Shown: positions 6,336 through 26,433, counted from the first letter of the stretch. The stretch: DNA of 32,930 bases from Elusimicrobia bacterium RIFOXYA2_FULL_39_19 (GCA_001800285.1 MGVC01000058.1:1-32930), one strand, 5' to 3'. The notes: generated from the sequence alone by a model not told the origin. Translations and numbers: made by a program.

Positions 6336-6923
6336 ATGAAGAAAATACTAATTTTTACGCTAGCCCTGATTGCGTTTACAGGAATTTTATTAAACGCCGC
6401 TGATAAACAGCAGTCAGAAACGCAGCTCAACACTTCAGCCAGAGAAATGTCCCAGATGTGCACTGCTGCCCAAAGCCGTTATACTGAGCAGGAAGTAAAT
6501 ACAATCTGCGATGCGGCAAAAGAAGCCGTACAGGCAGGCGCCACACAAAGAGAACTGGTAAAAATGGCCAGATCATTAATGCTGAAAAATATTTCAGCCC
6601 AGGACCTGGCAGCAACCATGGATATGGTAAAACTTGCAGTCAAAGAAGGATTATCCCCGCAAGAAGCCAGGACCGCAGTAGCCCTGCAGGCGCTAAACAG
6701 CTTAAACAATAACCAGACAGGCTCTACTTTATGCAATCAGATAGCTGTTGCTCTGACCTCAAGGCTGGCAGCCCGCGGAGAAAACCTGGAAGAATCCAAA
6801 AAAATGTTTCTCACAGTTAAAGAAAAAGTTGAGGAAACTATAAGAGAGCGTTACGGAAACTCTGTATCGCCGTCAATTAATGCTCCTTCTTCAGGAGATA
6901 CTAAAAGAAAACCTAAAAGATGA
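6336..6923 (+). CDS. Secreted helical protein of the sigma operon (paralogue of the 12.7-kb gene)
   Basis: A 195-aa protein with a signal peptide (about residues 1-21, ending LLNAA) and a strong Shine-Dalgarno (AGGAGGAGG) before its ATG. The mature protein is rich in Gln, Ala and charged residues and probably helical. It ends in a basic tail (KRKPKR). It is a clear paralogue of the 209-aa protein at 12728-13357: both share motifs such as EVN.IC.AAK.AV.AG.TQRE, QDLAAT.D.VK, LNSL..NQTG and ARGENLEE.KKMFLT. I do not recognise the family. Both genes lie behind the same ECF promoter motif, so they are likely sigma-regulated envelope proteins. It overlaps the next gene by ATGA. Confidence 0.8.
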   Translation: MKKILIFTLALIAFTGILLNAADKQQSETQLNTSAREMSQMCTAAQSRYTEQEVNTICDAAKEAVQAGATQRELVKMARSLMLKNISAQDLAATMDMVKLAVKEGLSPQEARTAVALQALNSLNNNQTGSTLCNQIAVALTSRLAARGENLEESKKMFLTVKEKVEETIRERYGNSVSPSINAPSSGDTKRKPKR

Positions 6924-12727: not shown

Positions 12728-13357
12728 TTATCTTTTGTTTTTTCTGTTCTGATCTCCTGTTTCTGGCGTGTTAGCCGGAGGAGTGGCTGCTTCACCGTAA
12801 TTTTCACGGATTTGTTCTTCTACTTTTTCCTTTAAAGTAAGGAACATTTTTTTTGCTTCTTCCAGGTTTTCGCCGCGGGCGACTACTCTTGCGCTGAGTG
12901 CAACTGCTATCTGGTTTGAAAGCATAGCGCCTGTCTGATTGCTGTTTAAGCTGTTGACTGCCTGAAGCATTACTGTATTTCTTGCTTCTTCCGGTGTAAG
13001 TCCTTCCTTAATAGAAACCTTTACCAAATCAATGGTTGCCGCAAGGTCCTGGCCGGTAATGTTTTTTGCCATAAGAGCTTTAGATAATTTTACCATTTCT
13101 CTCTGGGTTGTGCCTGCTTCAACTGCATCTTTTGCCGCTTCACAAATTGCATTAACTTCCTGTGTAGTAAAACGGTCCTGGGTAGCGGTGCAAAGCTTAT
13201 CCATCTCTTTTGTAGCTGTGCAAAGCTGATCCTGGGTTTGCAGCTTGTCCTGGGTCAGGAGCTGGTCTGGAGTTTCCGGAACAACCCTGTCTTCTGCTGT
13301 TAAAAAACCTGAACTTAACATAACTACTGCTAACATTGCTAATCCTGCTTTTTTCAT
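12728..13357 (-). CDS. Secreted helical protein under ECF promoter (paralogue of the 6.3-kb gene)
   Basis: A 209-aa protein with a signal peptide (about residues 1-21, ending FLTA) and a Shine-Dalgarno GGGAGG before the ATG. It is a paralogue of the third gene of the sigma operon (6336-6923), sharing most of the central ~130 residues and the basic C-terminal KNKR. It differs by an extra N-terminal repeat-like stretch (LLTQDKLQTQDQLCTATKEMDKLCTATQD) with a short TQDxL periodicity. It stands alone, flanked by a terminator downstream and by a copy of the ECF promoter motif upstream, so it is likely a distant member of the same regulon. Function unknown. Confidence 0.8.
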   Translation of the reverse strand: MKKAGLAMLAVVMLSSGFLTAEDRVVPETPDQLLTQDKLQTQDQLCTATKEMDKLCTATQDRFTTQEVNAICEAAKDAVEAGTTQREMVKLSKALMAKNITGQDLAATIDLVKVSIKEGLTPEEARNTVMLQAVNSLNSNQTGAMLSNQIAVALSARVVARGENLEEAKKMFLTLKEKVEEQIRENYGEAATPPANTPETGDQNRKNKR

Positions 13358-18515: not shown

Positions 18516-18589
18516 CGCGGGGTAGAGCAGTCCGGCAGCTCGTCAGGCTCATAACCTGGAGGCCGTTGGTTCAAATCCAACCCCCGCAA
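18516..18589 (+). tRNA. tRNA-fMet (CAT), initiator
   Basis: A 74-nt cloverleaf: acceptor CGCGGGG/CCCCGCA, D-arm, anticodon loop CTCATAA and T-arm GTTGG-TTCAAAT-CCAAC, with discriminator A. The C1 x A72 mismatch at the end of the acceptor stem is the bacterial initiator hallmark. CCA is not encoded. The usual three G-C pairs at the base of the anticodon stem are altered: pair 29-41 is A-U, with G30-C40 and G31-C39 retained, and 27-43 is U.G. Confidence 0.95.
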
Positions 18590-19098: not shown

Positions 19099-21255
19099 TT
19101 AATATACCACTCCTACTATATACCAGTAATATCCGGGAGAAGGGGTTGTTTTTTTAGCTACCCCTCCAACATTCACAAAAAAACCGCTGCCGTATTTATT
19201 AACATCCAGGCAATAATAGGATATGCTGGTGTAGTTTGCTTCAAGGTATGCGGAATATGGTATGGTCTTCTGCCAGACAGCGGTACCAGCAGAATTATAT
19301 TTGATAACTGAATTGTTTGAACCAAAAACATAAATATTGTTTGAAGCATCAACGGCTATGTCACCACCGCCTACCAAAGCACCTGTTTTCTGCCATACAA
19401 CGCCGCCGTTTGTGTCATATTTAATTATAATATTTTCTGAACCCGTTACCCCCACAACATAAATATTGCCGGAGCTGTCTACTGCCAGGCTGTTGCCTAA
19501 CCCGGCAAATTGTTTAGCCCACACCAGGTTTCCTGAAGAATTGTATTTGCATGTAATACATTTTGTAATACCGGTAGAAGTATTTGTAGCTATACCCGTT
19601 ACATAAACATTGCCGGAGTTATCAACGCCTATATCTGTTGCCATACAGTCATATCCGGAGGTAGTAGAATAAATTACCATCCAGATACTGGTTCCATTCT
19701 GGCTGCTTTTTAAAATAACATAAGACCCGTCGCCGGTACCCAGCGCGCTTCTGCCGGCTACATAACTATTAAAGTTTTTATCAACCGCTATTTTCATACC
19801 CATATCAGACCTTCCGCCACCGGTATTGTAGTACTGGCTCCAGAGCAGGTCTCCAAAAGTAGAATATTTTACTATAAATATGTCTATTGAACCGCCGTTT
19901 GTGCGATAACCGGTAACATAAATTTTGCTCAGAGAGTCTGTGTCTATGCCCATACCGCATTCGTAAATAGCATTTGATGCCACAAAATCCCGGCTCCAGA
20001 CCCTGCTGGATAAAATAAGATTGTATTTTGTATTTAGGGCATTCATTTCAAAAGTATTGCCTGACAGATAAGAGTAAAAACCTGTTGCACAGATCCATTC
20101 CCTGGTATCAACCGCAATATCATATAAGCAGGCATCCGTGCTGGCATATCCGTTTGTGACTAAATAAAAATAATCAAAAGCTAAAGGATTAGGAGACCCG
20201 TTTACCACGCTGCCTATGACTGATTCACCTATGATATTTACTGCGGTTATTGAAATATAGTAAGTTACACCGTAAGTTAAACCTGAAAAATTGTACGGGC
20301 TTGTAACACCGGTAATTACTGTAGAATTAGTTTTAGTTACTCCGGAAAATGTTGTGTAATAAAGCACGTAGGATGTTGCATCGTCAACGGAGGTCCAGCT
20401 GATGGTCAGCTTGCCGTTGCCCACTGACACTGTAGTGCCCGTGGGAGCCGTGGGGACAGTTTCTTCCTCATCTTCTCCGTCATCACTGCCGCCGCCAACT
20501 TTTGTCATTACAATAGCATTTGCGTCTGTTTCAATACCGCCGTCCCAATATACACACCAGGCAGCCGGTATAACATTTGTAATACTGCCTACTAATTTTC
20601 CGTCAACCAAATTAAAAGTCCATCTGGTATTATCCGTAGGGTTTTTAGCCGTAGTTCCTGTGACCCCTTCATGAGTATAAAACGTTATAGTGTTACCGTC
20701 AATAGTACCGTTATAATAAATTAAGGGCAAAGAAAGATCTGAAGGCCAGTCCCCAAAACCTGAGTTATATAAAGCGGTCCAGGTAAGAGGGTCTGCTGTT
20801 GGATTGTTTTCCAGTCCGGTTGAAGGCGCATCATTGCCATTATGCAGGTCATATTCCTGCGGCCCTATAAGATATCTCCATGATTTCTGAGCGTCATAAA
20901 TTTTTACTCTTGCGGCATTTCCTGTGCGTTCAATTACAAATTTAAATAATTTCTGTTCTTCTTTCCATCTTTGCCTGCCCAATGAATGCGGGTCATAATC
21001 CCCGTTTTCATCAATATCCATAATATAGTCATTATCAAAGGAATAAATAGTGGCAGTGCTTTGGAATACCCAGGTACCTGCAATCGGGTCCGAATTGGCG
21101 GCAGATGACGCAGTAGTATCAACTATTTTGCCCTGTTTTACCGCTTCTTCTACGGTTTTCTGCACGCCCTGTGCGGTACCAAAACCCACGAACCAGGCAT
21201 GAGCGCCTGTTGCGGAAAGTAACATCACAATAAAAACTAATAATATTTTTTTCAT
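19099..21255 (-). CDS. Secreted FN3 / SBBP-repeat protein
   Basis: A 718-aa exported protein. The signal peptide spans residues 1-20 (ending GAHA). Residues about 55-250 form a novel or lipocalin-like beta domain (DPIAGTWVFQSTATI, GTIDGNTITFYTHEG, RWTFNLVDGKLVGSI). An acidic linker (DDGEDEEE) leads to one fibronectin type III domain (about 267-356). The C-terminal half has SBBP-type beta-propeller repeats (DNSGNVYVTG, KYNSSGNLVWAKQF, DSSGNIYVVG, DASNNIYVFG). No T9SS-like C-terminal domain is evident, so it may use another route or stay periplasmic. A weak AAGGAAA precedes the ATG. Confidence 0.85.
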   Translation of the reverse strand: MKKILLVFIVMLLSATGAHAWFVGFGTAQGVQKTVEEAVKQGKIVDTTASSAANSDPIAGTWVFQSTATIYSFDNDYIMDIDENGDYDPHSLGRQRWKEEQKLFKFVIERTGNAARVKIYDAQKSWRYLIGPQEYDLHNGNDAPSTGLENNPTADPLTWTALYNSGFGDWPSDLSLPLIYYNGTIDGNTITFYTHEGVTGTTAKNPTDNTRWTFNLVDGKLVGSITNVIPAAWCVYWDGGIETDANAIVMTKVGGGSDDGEDEEETVPTAPTGTTVSVGNGKLTISWTSVDDATSYVLYYTTFSGVTKTNSTVITGVTSPYNFSGLTYGVTYYISITAVNIIGESVIGSVVNGSPNPLAFDYFYLVTNGYASTDACLYDIAVDTREWICATGFYSYLSGNTFEMNALNTKYNLILSSRVWSRDFVASNAIYECGMGIDTDSLSKIYVTGYRTNGGSIDIFIVKYSTFGDLLWSQYYNTGGGRSDMGMKIAVDKNFNSYVAGRSALGTGDGSYVILKSSQNGTSIWMVIYSTTSGYDCMATDIGVDNSGNVYVTGIATNTSTGITKCITCKYNSSGNLVWAKQFAGLGNSLAVDSSGNIYVVGVTGSENIIIKYDTNGGVVWQKTGALVGGGDIAVDASNNIYVFGSNNSVIKYNSAGTAVWQKTIPYSAYLEANYTSISYYCLDVNKYGSGFFVNVGGVAKKTTPSPGYYWYIVGVVY

Positions 21256-22263: not shown

Positions 22264-22296
22264 GTGTTAACAATAGGCGCACACTGTTAAATAACA
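22264..22296. promoter_or_regulatory. Candidate operator upstream of the XRE-cupin gene
   Basis: TGTTAACA (22265-22272) is a perfect 8-bp palindrome, and TGTTA-AA-TAACA (22285-22296) is a second inverted repeat, just upstream of the -35 box. The GTGTTWACA core recurs twice before the M20-like gene, suggesting a shared regulator, most simply the XRE protein itself. Confidence 0.45.
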
Positions 22297-22297
22297 C

Positions 22298-22326
22298 TTG
22301 ACATTTGTCTTTTCATAGGTTATAAT
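22298..22326 (+). promoter_or_regulatory. Consensus promoter of the XRE-cupin gene
   Basis: TTGACA (22298-22303), 17 nt, TATAAT (22321-22326): a perfect sigma70 consensus. The Shine-Dalgarno AGGAG (22333-22337) begins about where transcription should start, leaving a very short leader. Confidence 0.85.
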
Positions 22327-22343: not shown

Positions 22344-22895
22344 ATGAATTTATTAGGAATTAACATTAAGCGTTACCGCGAAACAAAAAGCATAACACTG
22401 AGAACCCTTGCAAAAAGCCTGGATATCAGCCCGAGCTTTTTATCTCAAATTGAAACCGGAAAGGCGGTTCCTTCTTTAGATACACTTAAAAAAATATCAG
22501 ACTCCCTTTCTACAACAATCGGCAACCTTATAGGTGAGGACCAGAAAGAAAATGCCTCACCTTTGCTTCGCCTTGAAGACAGAAAAAGTATAAATAAAAT
22601 CAGTTCTGGCATGGATATGTATCTTTTGACGTCTCCTGACCAAAACAAACAAATGGAACCCCTGCTATTTAAAATGAATGAAAAAGCATCATCCGGCAAA
22701 ACCCTTTACAGGCACTTTGGCCAGGAATTTGTACTGGTTATAAAAGGTTCTCTGGAAATATCGCTTAATAATACTGTCTATGCCTTAAAAAAAGGTGACA
22801 GTTTATATTTTAATTCAAATACACCACACTCATTTAAAAATACTGAAAAAGGCGAAACGGAAGCCATTTGGGTTGTAACTCCGCCGACTTTTTAA
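22344..22895 (+). CDS. XRE-family transcriptional regulator with C-terminal cupin domain
   Basis: A 183-aa regulator. The N-terminal helix-turn-helix (residues about 4-60: IKRYRETKSITLRTLAKSLDISPSFLSQIETGKAVPSLDTLKKISDSL) is the standard XRE fold. The C-terminal cupin_2 domain (about 105-180) shows FGQEFVLVIKGSLEISL, KKGDSLYFNSNTPHSFKNT. This architecture (SutR/PuuR-like) often senses a small metabolite and controls its catabolic genes. It heads a cluster with an M20-like and two acetate-kinase-like genes (first intergenic gap 68 nt). Repeated GTGTTWACA sites flank it on both sides. Confidence 0.93.
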   Translation: MNLLGINIKRYRETKSITLRTLAKSLDISPSFLSQIETGKAVPSLDTLKKISDSLSTTIGNLIGEDQKENASPLLRLEDRKSINKISSGMDMYLLTSPDQNKQMEPLLFKMNEKASSGKTLYRHFGQEFVLVIKGSLEISLNNTVYALKKGDSLYFNSNTPHSFKNTEKGETEAIWVVTPPTF

Positions 22896-22910
22896 TTTTT
22901 TTTGTTCTCT

Positions 22911-22950
22911 GTGTTTACATATACAATACAGTGTTTACAAATACAGCACA
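22911..22950 (+). repeat. Tandem 20-bp repeat upstream of the M20-like gene
   Basis: GTGTTTACATATACAATACA (22911-22930) is followed directly by GTGTTTACAAATACAGCACA (22931-22950): 16 of 20 positions are shared. A related GTGTTAACA.....GCACA occurs at 22264-22283 before the regulator gene. The helically phased repeat (about two turns) immediately before the Shine-Dalgarno suggests cooperative operator sites. Confidence 0.6.
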
Positions 22951-22963
22951 CGGGAGGTGCGCA

Positions 22964-24160
22964 ATGAAAGAACTGATAGCCGGGAGGCTGGAAGGGCTGC
23001 AACCGCAGATGAAAGGTTTTGCAAAAAAACTGGAGGAGCTTTCAACTACAAACAGAAAGCTTGCGGATTTTAATGATGTTGTTGTTGAAGAAATGAAACA
23101 GCTGGATTTTGATGAGTTCCGGCAGGATAAGTTTGATAATACTATGGGGATAATCAAAGGGTACAGGCAGGAAAAAGATATCGCCATAATATTCCATACA
23201 AACTACACCCAAAAAGACTCAACGCAAAGCAGCTGCAGTTATCAGCCGGGTGTTATTACCGCTCTTTACTCAGCGGCACTGCTAAAAAGAACCCTGCTTC
23301 CTTTGTACGGCGATATTATTGTATGCGGAGTGCCCAGATCTAACAGCTGTGAATTCGGTATAAAGTACTTATTTAATTCATTTCTCGCCAAAAGGGCAAA
23401 AAGGCTTAAGGGCATTATTCTCTGCGAGCCTACAGACATGAATGTGTATCTTGGGCATAAAGGCAGAATGGAGTATGAAATTTCAGTCAGGCTGAAACTG
23501 ACCAATAATTTTTTATCCAGCACGGGAGTAAATATGCTGGGCACCATGTTCCCGCTTATACATGAACTGGAAAATGTTTCAAACAATATGCCTTCAAACT
23601 GTACGCTGGGTAAATCATCGCTTAGAATAAAAGATGTCCGGTTTACCGGCACTCAGCCTAATACAGAAGAAAATGAGTTTAAAATTATTGTTGACAGGGC
23701 CTATATACCTGAGGAACAGCAGGAAAATATTCTGGAACGCGCAAAACTTATTGCAGAATCCGTTTATAATAAGGAAACCGCGGTAAATGTTCAAACTATG
23801 GTAGCAAGCGAAAAAATAAAAACAGGTTCAGGCATTAAACTTGTTTCAAAAAAAGAAACCAAACCCTGGACTATGGCCGCCAACCATCCCTTTGTGCTTG
23901 AATCCATGCAGGCGCTTACAGATAACGGGTTTAAAACGGATGTTGGTTACTGGAAAAAAACTTTTACGGAAGGTTCGTATACCTTTGCCGAATTAGGTAT
24001 TCCTACCTTAGGTTTTGGCCCCGGCCGGGAAGATATGGCTGATGATTTTACAAAAGAAAAAACAGGCAGTTTAATAAAAAATGCCGTACATGCGCAAACC
24101 ATGATGATACACAGAAATATAGGAATGCCTGTTTTAGGATGGAACTCCGATGAATTATGA
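22964..24160 (+). CDS. M20-family peptidase-like protein lacking metal ligands
   Basis: A 398-aa protein with the overall plan of M20 metallohydrolases (YgeY/ArgE/DapE type). CEPTDMNVYLGHKGRMEYEISV (about residues 154-175) and the terminal FGPGRED are clear family landmarks. The catalytic metal site looks destroyed: the usual H-x-D is HTN (78-80), the region expected to supply the bridging Asp reads SSCSYQPG, the expected Glu-Glu pair is replaced by PRSNSCE, and no histidine follows FGPG. Only Glu155 of the 'EPT' motif remains. Hence probably a pseudoenzyme or a different chemistry. The start is ATG 22964, supported by GGGAGG; the frame is open further upstream but without such a site. It overlaps the next gene by 11 nt. 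Confidence 0.8.
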   Translation: MKELIAGRLEGLQPQMKGFAKKLEELSTTNRKLADFNDVVVEEMKQLDFDEFRQDKFDNTMGIIKGYRQEKDIAIIFHTNYTQKDSTQSSCSYQPGVITALYSAALLKRTLLPLYGDIIVCGVPRSNSCEFGIKYLFNSFLAKRAKRLKGIILCEPTDMNVYLGHKGRMEYEISVRLKLTNNFLSSTGVNMLGTMFPLIHELENVSNNMPSNCTLGKSSLRIKDVRFTGTQPNTEENEFKIIVDRAYIPEEQQENILERAKLIAESVYNKETAVNVQTMVASEKIKTGSGIKLVSKKETKPWTMAANHPFVLESMQALTDNGFKTDVGYWKKTFTEGSYTFAELGIPTLGFGPGREDMADDFTKEKTGSLIKNAVHAQTMMIHRNIGMPVLGWNSDEL

Positions 24161-25373
24161 ACTTAACGTTTTAGTAATTAATTGCGGCAGTTCATCGCTT
24201 AAATTCCGGATAATACACATGCCTTCGGAAACAGAGCTGATTTCCGGCGAAGCTGTAAGAGTGGGCATAAAAACCAATCTACCTTCTTCTATTAACTACA
24301 GCATAAAAGGCAAAAATAAAACCATGCAGGTACCCATGCCTGATCATTCAGCCGCTTTCCAGGAAGTAACAAAACTGTTAAAACATGTTGAAAAAATTGG
24401 GTTTGACTGCATAGCTCACAGATATGTTCATCCGGGAAATTATTTTCATAAAACTATAAAAGTTGATGGGCACATAATAGAAAAACTTAAAAACACCCTG
24501 TGCCTGGCGCCGATACACAATACCGTATCTTTAAGACTTATAGAAACCTGCGCCAGGGAATGCCCCGGCATAAACCAGTATGCAGTTTTTGACACGGTAT
24601 TTCACAAAACCATTCCTGACGAAGCTGCTTCTTACGCGCTTCCGGCAAATTTGGTAAATAAATATCACTTTAGAAAAACAGGCTTTCACGGTATTTCCCA
24701 TAGATACATTATGGAAGAAACCTTCAAACATTTTGCCGGCGCCCGGGACTCTTTGAAAATTATAAGCTGCCATCTTGGCAGCGGAGGTTCAAGTTTATGC
24801 GCCATAGAAAACGGCAAATCCATTAACAACTCTATGGGGTTCAGTCCGCTTGAAGGGCTGATGATGAATACCCGTTCAGGTGATATTGATATAGGCATAC
24901 TGCTTTCTATTATGTCGCTAAATAATATATCGGCAGGCGAAGTAGAAAACATGCTGAATTTCAAAAGCGGCATTCTGGGTGTTTTTACCGAATCATCGGA
25001 CATGAGAGATATTGTGAAAAGATACCGTGATGATGCTAAAGCCAGAATGGTATTTGAAATGTATGTAAGACGCGTAAGAAAGTATATCGGCTACTACAAT
25101 CTTCTGCTAAAGAATACGGATGTGCTTGTTTTTACGGACACTCTGGGTATTGAAGTGCCCCTTATCAGAAAAAAAGCCTGTGAAGGGCTGGAATGTTTCG
25201 GCATTATGCTTGATTCGAAAAAAAACGTACAGCCGCAAAGAGGTTTAGCTGATTTATCTGACAGTAAATCTAAAGTTAAAATACTGGCCATCCCGACAAA
25301 TGAAGAAATTATGATAGCCAGAGAAACTTATAAGGAATTCCCCAATGATACTCATTATAAACCCGCAAATTAA
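24150..25373 (+). CDS. Acetate kinase-like protein with altered nucleotide-binding motif
   Basis: A 407-aa acetokinase (ASKHA) family member. Catalytic landmarks are kept at almost the numbering of the archaeal enzyme: N11 in NCGSSS, R91 (AHRYVHPG), D148 (FDTVFH), H180 (FHGISH), R242 (TRSGDID) and E386 (PTNEE), plus the phosphate-2 loop CHLGSGGSS. The highly conserved ADENOSINE motif (GGIGEN in typical AckA) reads instead TDTLGIEV (about 329-336), so nucleotide binding must be changed or lost. The ATG overlaps the preceding gene, with AGGATGGA upstream. It could act on another acyl group (propionate, butyrate) or need its neighbour as a second subunit. Confidence 0.85.
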   Translation: MNYELNVLVINCGSSSLKFRIIHMPSETELISGEAVRVGIKTNLPSSINYSIKGKNKTMQVPMPDHSAAFQEVTKLLKHVEKIGFDCIAHRYVHPGNYFHKTIKVDGHIIEKLKNTLCLAPIHNTVSLRLIETCARECPGINQYAVFDTVFHKTIPDEAASYALPANLVNKYHFRKTGFHGISHRYIMEETFKHFAGARDSLKIISCHLGSGGSSLCAIENGKSINNSMGFSPLEGLMMNTRSGDIDIGILLSIMSLNNISAGEVENMLNFKSGILGVFTESSDMRDIVKRYRDDAKARMVFEMYVRRVRKYIGYYNLLLKNTDVLVFTDTLGIEVPLIRKKACEGLECFGIMLDSKKNVQPQRGLADLSDSKSKVKILAIPTNEEIMIARETYKEFPNDTHYKPAN

Positions 25374-26433
25374 AAAAACAGTTATTACTGCTTTTAAGCC
25401 GTCCGCAGAAAAAAGCATTTCTTTTGACCTGAATACCACGGTGCCTTATGCGCAGCAGCGGGCACAACTAAAAAAAATAGCCGCTAAGCTTACTGCAAAA
25501 ACAAAACTAAAAGCTATTGCTTTCAGGCTGCATTATGCCGGAAAAGAGTTTGAAAAACCTGTATTTATCAGCAAATCAGTAATTGAGAAATTTGCGGCGG
25601 GCGTTTTTGCTTTTCCTCTTTATATGCCCCAGGTAATAAACTCTATTGAGCTTTTTATGTCAGAAATACAAAATGTGCCCTGCCTGGCATTTTTTGAAAC
25701 CTCGTTTTTTTCCGGCTTGCCGGAAAACGAAAAATCATACCCGATAGGAAAACATTATTTCAACTCAACGGGTATAGAAAAACGCGGCTATCACGGTATC
25801 TGGCACGAAGAAAATGCGGGAATGTTCGGCAAAAATGAAAAGATTATTTCCGTAGTGCTGGATAAACAAACCACGGTCTGTTCCATACAAGGCAGAAAAC
25901 CTATGGCTGTCAGTCTGGGCTATACGCCGCTTGAAGGTATAATGTCTTTAAAAAGCTGCGGTGACATAGACCCCGGGATTGCCGTTTACCTGATGAAGGA
26001 ACAGGGCTATTCGGTTTATAAAATTGACGATATTTTAAAAAACGAAAGCGGCTTTTATGGCATGACCGGCAATAACATGCCTATAGCGGAACTCATACAG
26101 CTTTACGGCAGGGATGATTCCGTAAAATTGGCTTTTGATGTGTATAAAAACCAGATTCTTAAATATATTGGTGACGCTATAGCTGTTTTACACGGCTTTG
26201 ACAGAATTATATTTGCCGGAGGAAATGTTAAACCGCTTTCAAGGATAATTTACAGAATTATGAAGGATATATCGTTCTTAGGTTTAAGTATAGGCAGGCT
26301 GCCCTGGGAATATAAAACAAAATTAATAAAAATCGCTTCCGGTGATTCCTTGAAAAGCGCTTACATTAATTCTCAAAGCACTGAAGAAATATTGTTTAAA
26401 AAAACAAAAATAATATTATCCCGGAAGGGTTAG
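25345..26433 (+). CDS. Degenerate acetate kinase paralogue
   Basis: A 362-aa relative of the preceding protein. Shared landmarks include RLHYAGKEF (R61, equivalent to R91), GYHGIWHEE (H150, equivalent to H180), GYTPLEGIMSLKSCGDIDPGI, and IFAGGN in the adenosine region. The N-terminal NxGSSS is gone (INPQIKK), FDTxFH is FETSFF, TRSGD is LKSCGD (the essential Arg is lost), and the phosphate-2 loop is LDKQTTVC. It is therefore unlikely to be an active acetate kinase alone. It overlaps the upstream gene by 29 nt, with AAGGA before its ATG, indicating coupled synthesis and possibly a heteromeric complex. Its TAG stop overlaps the convergent glycosyltransferase stop. Confidence 0.82.
   Translation: MILIINPQIKKTVITAFKPSAEKSISFDLNTTVPYAQQRAQLKKIAAKLTAKTKLKAIAFRLHYAGKEFEKPVFISKSVIEKFAAGVFAFPLYMPQVINSIELFMSEIQNVPCLAFFETSFFSGLPENEKSYPIGKHYFNSTGIEKRGYHGIWHEENAGMFGKNEKIISVVLDKQTTVCSIQGRKPMAVSLGYTPLEGIMSLKSCGDIDPGIAVYLMKEQGYSVYKIDDILKNESGFYGMTGNNMPIAELIQLYGRDDSVKLAFDVYKNQILKYIGDAIAVLHGFDRIIFAGGNVKPLSRIIYRIMKDISFLGLSIGRLPWEYKTKLIKIASGDSLKSAYINSQSTEEILFKKTKIILSRKG

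Follow-up and report, generated by a model that had tools for sequence, protein, structure and literature searches.

An operon of Elusimicrobia bacterium RIFOXYA2_FULL_39_19 raises the question of why a bacterium would retain, behind a regulator of their own, two acetate kinase homologs and an M20 hydrolase homolog that seem to have lost catalytic residues. The locus lies in the 32,930-nucleotide stretch of DNA that we analysed (GCA_001800285.1 MGVC01000058.1:1-32930; hereafter the window). An earlier note, made from the sequence alone, regarded the genes as a co-regulated set of largely degenerate enzymes, perhaps forming a complex with shared active sites, or sensing or assembling a small acylated compound. 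We asked which of the proteins are degenerate, how widely the set is conserved, and what reaction it might support.

Results

Organization and regulation of the locus

Four intact ORFs, all on the plus strand, follow a perfect sigma-70 promoter (TTGACA-17-TATAAT, 22298..22326, with TTGACA at 22298 and TATAAT at 22321; 12 of 12 positions match the consensus). The first (22344..22895) encodes a 183-residue XRE-cupin transcription regulator with Pfam HTH_3 and Cupin_2 domains and a PuuR-like C terminus (TPPTF). After a gap of 68 nt comes the M20-like gene (22964..24160), whose ATG at 22964 is preceded by GGGAGGTG; a start at 22868 was rejected as an artefactual upstream start. This gene overlaps AckA1 (24150..25373; PF00871, 5.6e-110) by 11 nt, and AckA1 in turn overlaps AckA2 (25345..26433; PF00871, 3.9e-46) by 29 nt. 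Elsewhere in the window, the opposite strand upstream of the operon (19099-21255) encodes a large protein that is secreted and includes a fibronectin-type-like stretch, a tRNA gene occupies 18516-18589, and the genes of two small secreted paralogs of about 200 aa, very similar in sequence, lie on opposite strands with some 6 kb between them (6336-6923 and 12728-13357).

The promoter is overlain by a palindrome, TGTTAA-N7-TTGACA (22285..22303, plus strand), which is exact in the window and has the -35 hexamer as its right half. Upstream of the XRE-cupin gene it recurs with at most two mismatches in 15 of 15 loci of types I and III (defined below) and with at most one in 13 of them, against a shuffle mean of 0.025, and a second copy often stands 30 bp upstream of the first. 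The promoter itself partly accounts for the TTGACA half, so that what counts as independent evidence is the left half, at its fixed spacing, together with the second copy. In the window genome the operator is essentially unique to the operon; just one further exact copy exists, inside a histidine-kinase ORF, and it was discarded as a second target. The palindrome is probably the autoregulatory site of the XRE-cupin protein, and its presence in both operon types suggests that the same regulator class controls both. The regulator resembles PuuR-type XRE-cupin proteins in joining a helix-turn-helix to a cupin, in its TPPTF-like end, which is a PuuR feature, and in having a site at its own promoter, but it scores below the NCBIfam PuuR cut-off (67.4 vs 211 bits) and accompanies acetate kinase genes. 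A link to polyamines, considered on account of the PuuR-like regulator and of the carboxynorspermidine-type genes that neighbour a single type II locus, was dropped because it is not conserved.

Conservation of the gene set

The order XRE-cupin, M20-like, AckA1, AckA2, overlaps included, recurs in about 12 genomes of Omnitrophota, a phylum other than that of the window (Elusimicrobiota). When an AckA2 profile was run across the phylum, the true AckA2 family (at least 351 bits) stood apart from ordinary acetate kinases (at most 209 bits); a scan of 84,980 species located orthologs in Omnitrophota, and 384 Omnitrophota genomes, searched in turn, yielded more. Including the window there are 13 loci of this kind (type I), 11 of them complete with all four genes and two cut by contig ends, and the close spacing is kept, a conservation of gene order far above chance. 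Identity between the window and the first three Omnitrophota sets is 48-49% for the M20-like protein, 52-54% for AckA1, 42-43% for AckA2 and about 60% for the regulator, which is 58-64% identical to those of type I Omnitrophota operons and 56-61% to those of type III. For one pair of close relatives, dN/dS is 0.18 for the M20-like gene, 0.12 for AckA1 and 0.13 for AckA2, which means purifying selection on each of these genes. The earlier note had held that the four genes are regulated together and are not in simple decay, and had proposed looking for the same order in other genomes and for selection among relatives. It was right that the set is conserved, selected and co-regulated, and simple decay is ruled out by dN/dS and operon conservation. 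It knew of no described system with this gene set, and our literature search yielded no description of one, nor of an AckA paired with a pseudo-enzyme. In Elusimicrobiota outside the window, an M20-based search for the operon returned canonical YgeY relatives only, and a search of plasmids for AckA2 returned merely ordinary kinases with less than 60% identity.

The four-gene set is a real conserved unit, but it represents just one (type I) of three kinds of operon, and only AckA1-AckA2 is common to all. Across 725 genomes (341 Elusimicrobiota and 384 Omnitrophota), every AckA1 scoring at least 455 bits has AckA2 immediately downstream; one lower match that we inspected (L148, 435 bits) is a canonical kinase. 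Because this pair is constant while the other partners vary, we take AckA1-AckA2 to be the invariant core. Type II loci (n = 9; six Elusimicrobiota, three Omnitrophota) carry AckA1, AckA2 and a FolE2-like protein (PF02649) and have no XRE-cupin gene; in Elusimicrobiota a divergent LysR gene precedes them. The FolE2-like gene was read after AckA2 in seven of the nine (including L035 11635-12426, L036 7448-8239 and L140 9191-9976), crude ORF calling leaving it unresolved in L088 and L090. Its product lacks SLCPCS, the Cys motif of FolE2, and is a further degenerate enzyme that accompanies AckA1-AckA2. Type III loci (n = 5, all Omnitrophota, one cut by a contig end inside AckA1) run XRE-cupin, PAS-GGDEF, Pta (PF01515, 1e-95), AckA1, AckA2. 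In four of these operons, which have a regulator of the same kind, Pta lies directly upstream of AckA1, an indication that acetyl phosphate is the substrate. The PAS-GGDEF protein between the regulator and Pta (L143 4618-5574; also L144, L145 and L147) may link acetate metabolism to cyclic-di-GMP signalling. One genome (G270) holds two AckA1-AckA2 copies (L089 1451-2422 and L090); one of its AckA1 genes covers profile positions 59-403 only, and its 5′ end may be damaged.

AckA1 and the Entamoeba enzyme

AckA1, listed previously among the degenerate enzymes, turned out to keep 14 of 15 hallmark acetate kinase residues (list from PMC4390882). The NxGSSS motif, R91, H123, D148, H180, R242 and E385/E386 are retained, and FTDTLGIEV stands where GGIGEN is expected; the alignment thus upholds the claim that R91, D148, H180, R242 and E386 were kept and GGIGEN lost. 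Aligned to the M. thermophila enzyme, the protein keeps N7, S10-S12, K14, R91, V93, H123, D148, F179, H180, P232, R241 and E384, and with them the whole acyl/phosphate catalytic set (N7, S10-12, R91, H123, D148, F179, H180, R241, E384). The acetate pocket (V93, I122, F179, P232) is intact, the L122 position being Ile as in the acetate kinase of Entamoeba histolytica (EhACK). Type II AckA1 proteins of Elusimicrobiota have Gly for Val93 and Gly or Ala for Pro232.

Two motifs set AckA1 apart from ATP-type enzymes. PHOSPHATE2 reads HLGSGGSS (24771..24794), with an extra Gly that is the same one-residue insertion as in EhACK (HLGTGGSS; PMC5517563), and this extended loop is absent from every canonical acetate kinase compared. 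In ADENOSINE, FTDTLGIEV (25131..25157) replaces the ATP-type FT(A/G)GIGEN, with its Gly331-Ile/Val332 and GEN, so that Asp stands at 330 and Gly is missing at 331; the EhACK counterpart is FTDQMGLEV. HLG[ST]GG and FTD[TSD][LIV]G occur in all 24 aligned AckA1 sequences, from all three operon types, and the Asp, like the loop, is absent from the canonical kinases compared. EhACK is the sole acetate kinase shown to use PPi/Pi (PMC5517563). Gly331 is invariant in ATP-using acetate kinases (PMC4390882), and published work takes its loss, the Asp and the extended loop as specific to EhACK and putative relatives (PMC5517563, PMC4390882); Dang and Ingram-Smith found the loop and Asp confined to Entamoeba and four Anaerolineaceae sequences (PMC5517563).

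EhACK (EC 2.7.2.12, PDB 4H0O) and AckA1 also share Thr or Ser for Asn211, non-Gly residues at 239 and 331, and the catalytic set. They differ in that EhACK is described as a single enzyme, whereas AckA1 is always followed by AckA2 here, and in that window-type AckA1 has Lys14, absent in EhACK, and Thr-Leu for the Gln-Met that occludes the adenosine pocket of EhACK, other AckA1 proteins having other residues there. The putative PPi-dependent enzymes of Anaerolineaceae (Ornatilinea, Longilinea, Flexilinea and Leptolinea) share the loop and the Asp at 330 and, like type II and III AckA1, carry Asp rather than Gln at the 323 position (PMC5517563). Since these candidates also differ at the Gln, we do not treat Gln-Met as defining, and our claim stays that AckA1 works like EhACK.

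Phylogeny places EhACK inside the AckA1 clade with support of 100/99 on all columns, and the grouping persists with both motif regions removed (99/95 and 100/100 in two trees). Against the PDB, a type II AckA1 matches EhACK first, at 395 bits, the next structure scoring 313; in a single-sequence search with the window AckA1, Thermotoga AckA (295 bits) outscores EhACK (251 bits). Motif swaps have converted neither ATP enzymes to PPi use nor the reverse (PMC5517563), and the donor therefore cannot be read off from motifs with certainty. Given this and the slightly nearer Thermotoga enzyme, PPi/Pi use by AckA1 is a strong but unproven prediction.

The host genome holds two more PF00871 genes outside the operon. 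Among the acetate kinase paralogs of the host and its relatives is a separate divergent group, outside the operon (L002, at G000:C44:31740-32909; L019; L006/L013) with an altered PHOSPHATE1, such as NRVNT, and Gln, Arg, Met or Ala for Asn211.

AckA2 and the M20-like protein

AckA2 has the acetate kinase fold (Foldseek to acetate kinases, E = 4e-28, besides the Pfam match) and little of the active site. The AckA2 sequences aligned have none of NxGSSS, HLGNG, the Arg of LOOP3 (R241) or the region around E384, and AckA2 is predicted to be non-catalytic; D148 is replaced by Glu, an Arg equivalent to R91 is kept, and LOOP3 bears a conserved CG(D)(I)D signature. The loss of NxGSSS and the key Arg had been recognized before, but the AGGN that was said to remain in that region is not conserved in orthologs. 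Three type III AckA2 proteins consist of roughly the C-terminal domain alone (234-248 aa), the domain that reportedly holds the dimer interface of acetate kinases. Such C-terminal-only forms, with the obligate adjacency to AckA1, favour a role as a subunit. The position of AckA2 in trees is unsafe, as the tool warned of long branches meeting.

The M20 fold of the third protein is supported by a Foldseek match (E = 2e-18) with a model of modest confidence; a PDB sequence search with its profile gave no match. Its best family match is YgeY, the selenium-linked M20 hydrolase (TIGR03526 / NF009555; 5.9e-35), with which it shares EPT and the overall order, but it falls far below the NCBIfam cut-off (120.9 vs 321 bits). 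Alignment to the phylum's canonical YgeY-type proteins shows that the bridging Asp, both EED Glu residues, the final His and the His of the lid domain are gone. Of the ligands that make up the dinuclear site (H-x-D, D, EE, E, H), D, EE and the last H are missing from 12 of 12 proteins, and the EPT Glu persists. Most metal ligands are indeed lost, as had been claimed, but the Glu of EPT is not the only survivor: the first His (His78) also remains, as it does in most orthologs, which often have the whole H-x-D. Orthologs strongly conserve a C-terminal tail, RNIGMPTFGWSSDEI, that is new with respect to YgeY. Hydrolysis by this protein is unlikely on these residues, and we would guess, with low confidence, at ligand binding or scaffolding.

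Discussion

We consider it somewhat probable that the operon encodes a heteromeric enzyme converting acetyl phosphate and Pi to acetate and PPi, with AckA2 as a dead subunit and the M20-like protein as a dead accessory, under control of the XRE-cupin regulator. AckA1 would act without a nucleotide, as EhACK does. AckA2 would take the place of one subunit of the usual acetate kinase dimer, giving an obligate AckA1-AckA2 heteromer in which it stabilizes or regulates AckA1. The M20-like protein would be a YgeY-type hydrolase retained as a ligand-binding or scaffold subunit, type II operons having the FolE2-like protein in its place and type III operons Pta and PAS-GGDEF. The regulator may bind TGTTAA-N7-TTGACA over the -35 box and repress the operon as long as it lacks its ligand, which is probably a precursor or product of the acetyl phosphate pathway. 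A complex that handles a small acylated compound, along the lines of the earlier note, is plausible, the compound now being best read as acetyl phosphate. As in the standard Pta-AckA pathway, acetyl phosphate would be the intermediate, and Pta is paired with AckA1 in type III; the differences are an AckA1 without the nucleotide motif, the extra AckA2, and a dedicated regulator and operator. Among the 12 type I genomes searched, 11 have Pta, the window genome having PduL instead, and all 12 have a membrane pyrophosphatase, which is a matter of consistency, not enrichment. Acetyl phosphate can thus be made, and PPi used.

Several other readings draw on the same observations. The operon could be a sensor: AckA1 would bind acetyl phosphate, or hydrolyse it slowly, and the XRE-cupin protein would be informed of acetyl phosphate or acetate status through AckA2 and the M20-like protein. 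Two of the four proteins being dead enzymes, the regulator at the head of the operon, the PAS-GGDEF protein of type III, and a standard AckA elsewhere in the genome, by which AckA1 would not be needed for bulk flux, all fit such a role; but AckA1 keeps a near-full catalytic set in all types, beyond the needs of a sensor, Pta in type III suggests flux, and type II has no XRE-cupin gene, so that we regard it as unlikely. We give still less credence to an AckA1 that has lost adenosine binding and uses a different donor, for instance polyphosphate or some other small phosphoryl compound, or that acts on an acid other than acetate, supplied through an operon-specific partner. Another donor has been raised for the Anaerolineaceae relatives with Asp for Gln at 323 (PMC5517563), and the altered pocket of type II Elusimicrobiota AckA1 would suit another acid, yet the acetate pocket is kept in the window and Pta neighbours AckA1 in type III.

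That AckA1 is an ordinary ATP-dependent kinase whose adenosine motif drifted neutrally beside decaying paralogs is very improbable. Its PF00871 score does equal that of many normal enzymes, but neutral drift sits poorly with a single derived motif in all AckA1 proteins and EhACK, with the replacement of a Gly331 otherwise invariant in ATP enzymes, with dN/dS of 0.12-0.18 on genes supposed to be decaying, and with an operon order preserved across two phyla. A PPi-forming AckA1-AckA2 enzyme could be extended to an undescribed energy-conserving module, in which the obligate heteromer, with interchangeable dead-enzyme accessories, keeps the energy of acetyl phosphate as PPi for the membrane pyrophosphatase, and whose lineage donated the Entamoeba enzyme. 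We think this doubtful as a whole. Silencing of the acetate kinase in Entamoeba gave no support for a major role as a PPi source, which makes the energy-storage idea speculative.

PPi-dependent acetate kinase has been proven in Entamoeba only, with a few putative bacterial counterparts, and over 20 bacterial relatives, forming a clade, can now be set beside it. Because these come with an obligate dead paralog and a tie to Pta, the question of the donor is testable with recombinant proteins. The findings bear on the recruitment of pseudo-enzymes as subunits, on a bacterial origin of the amoebal enzyme and on the part of PPi in the energetics of uncultured anaerobic phyla, and they suggest a new route in anaerobes from acetyl phosphate to acetate and PPi.
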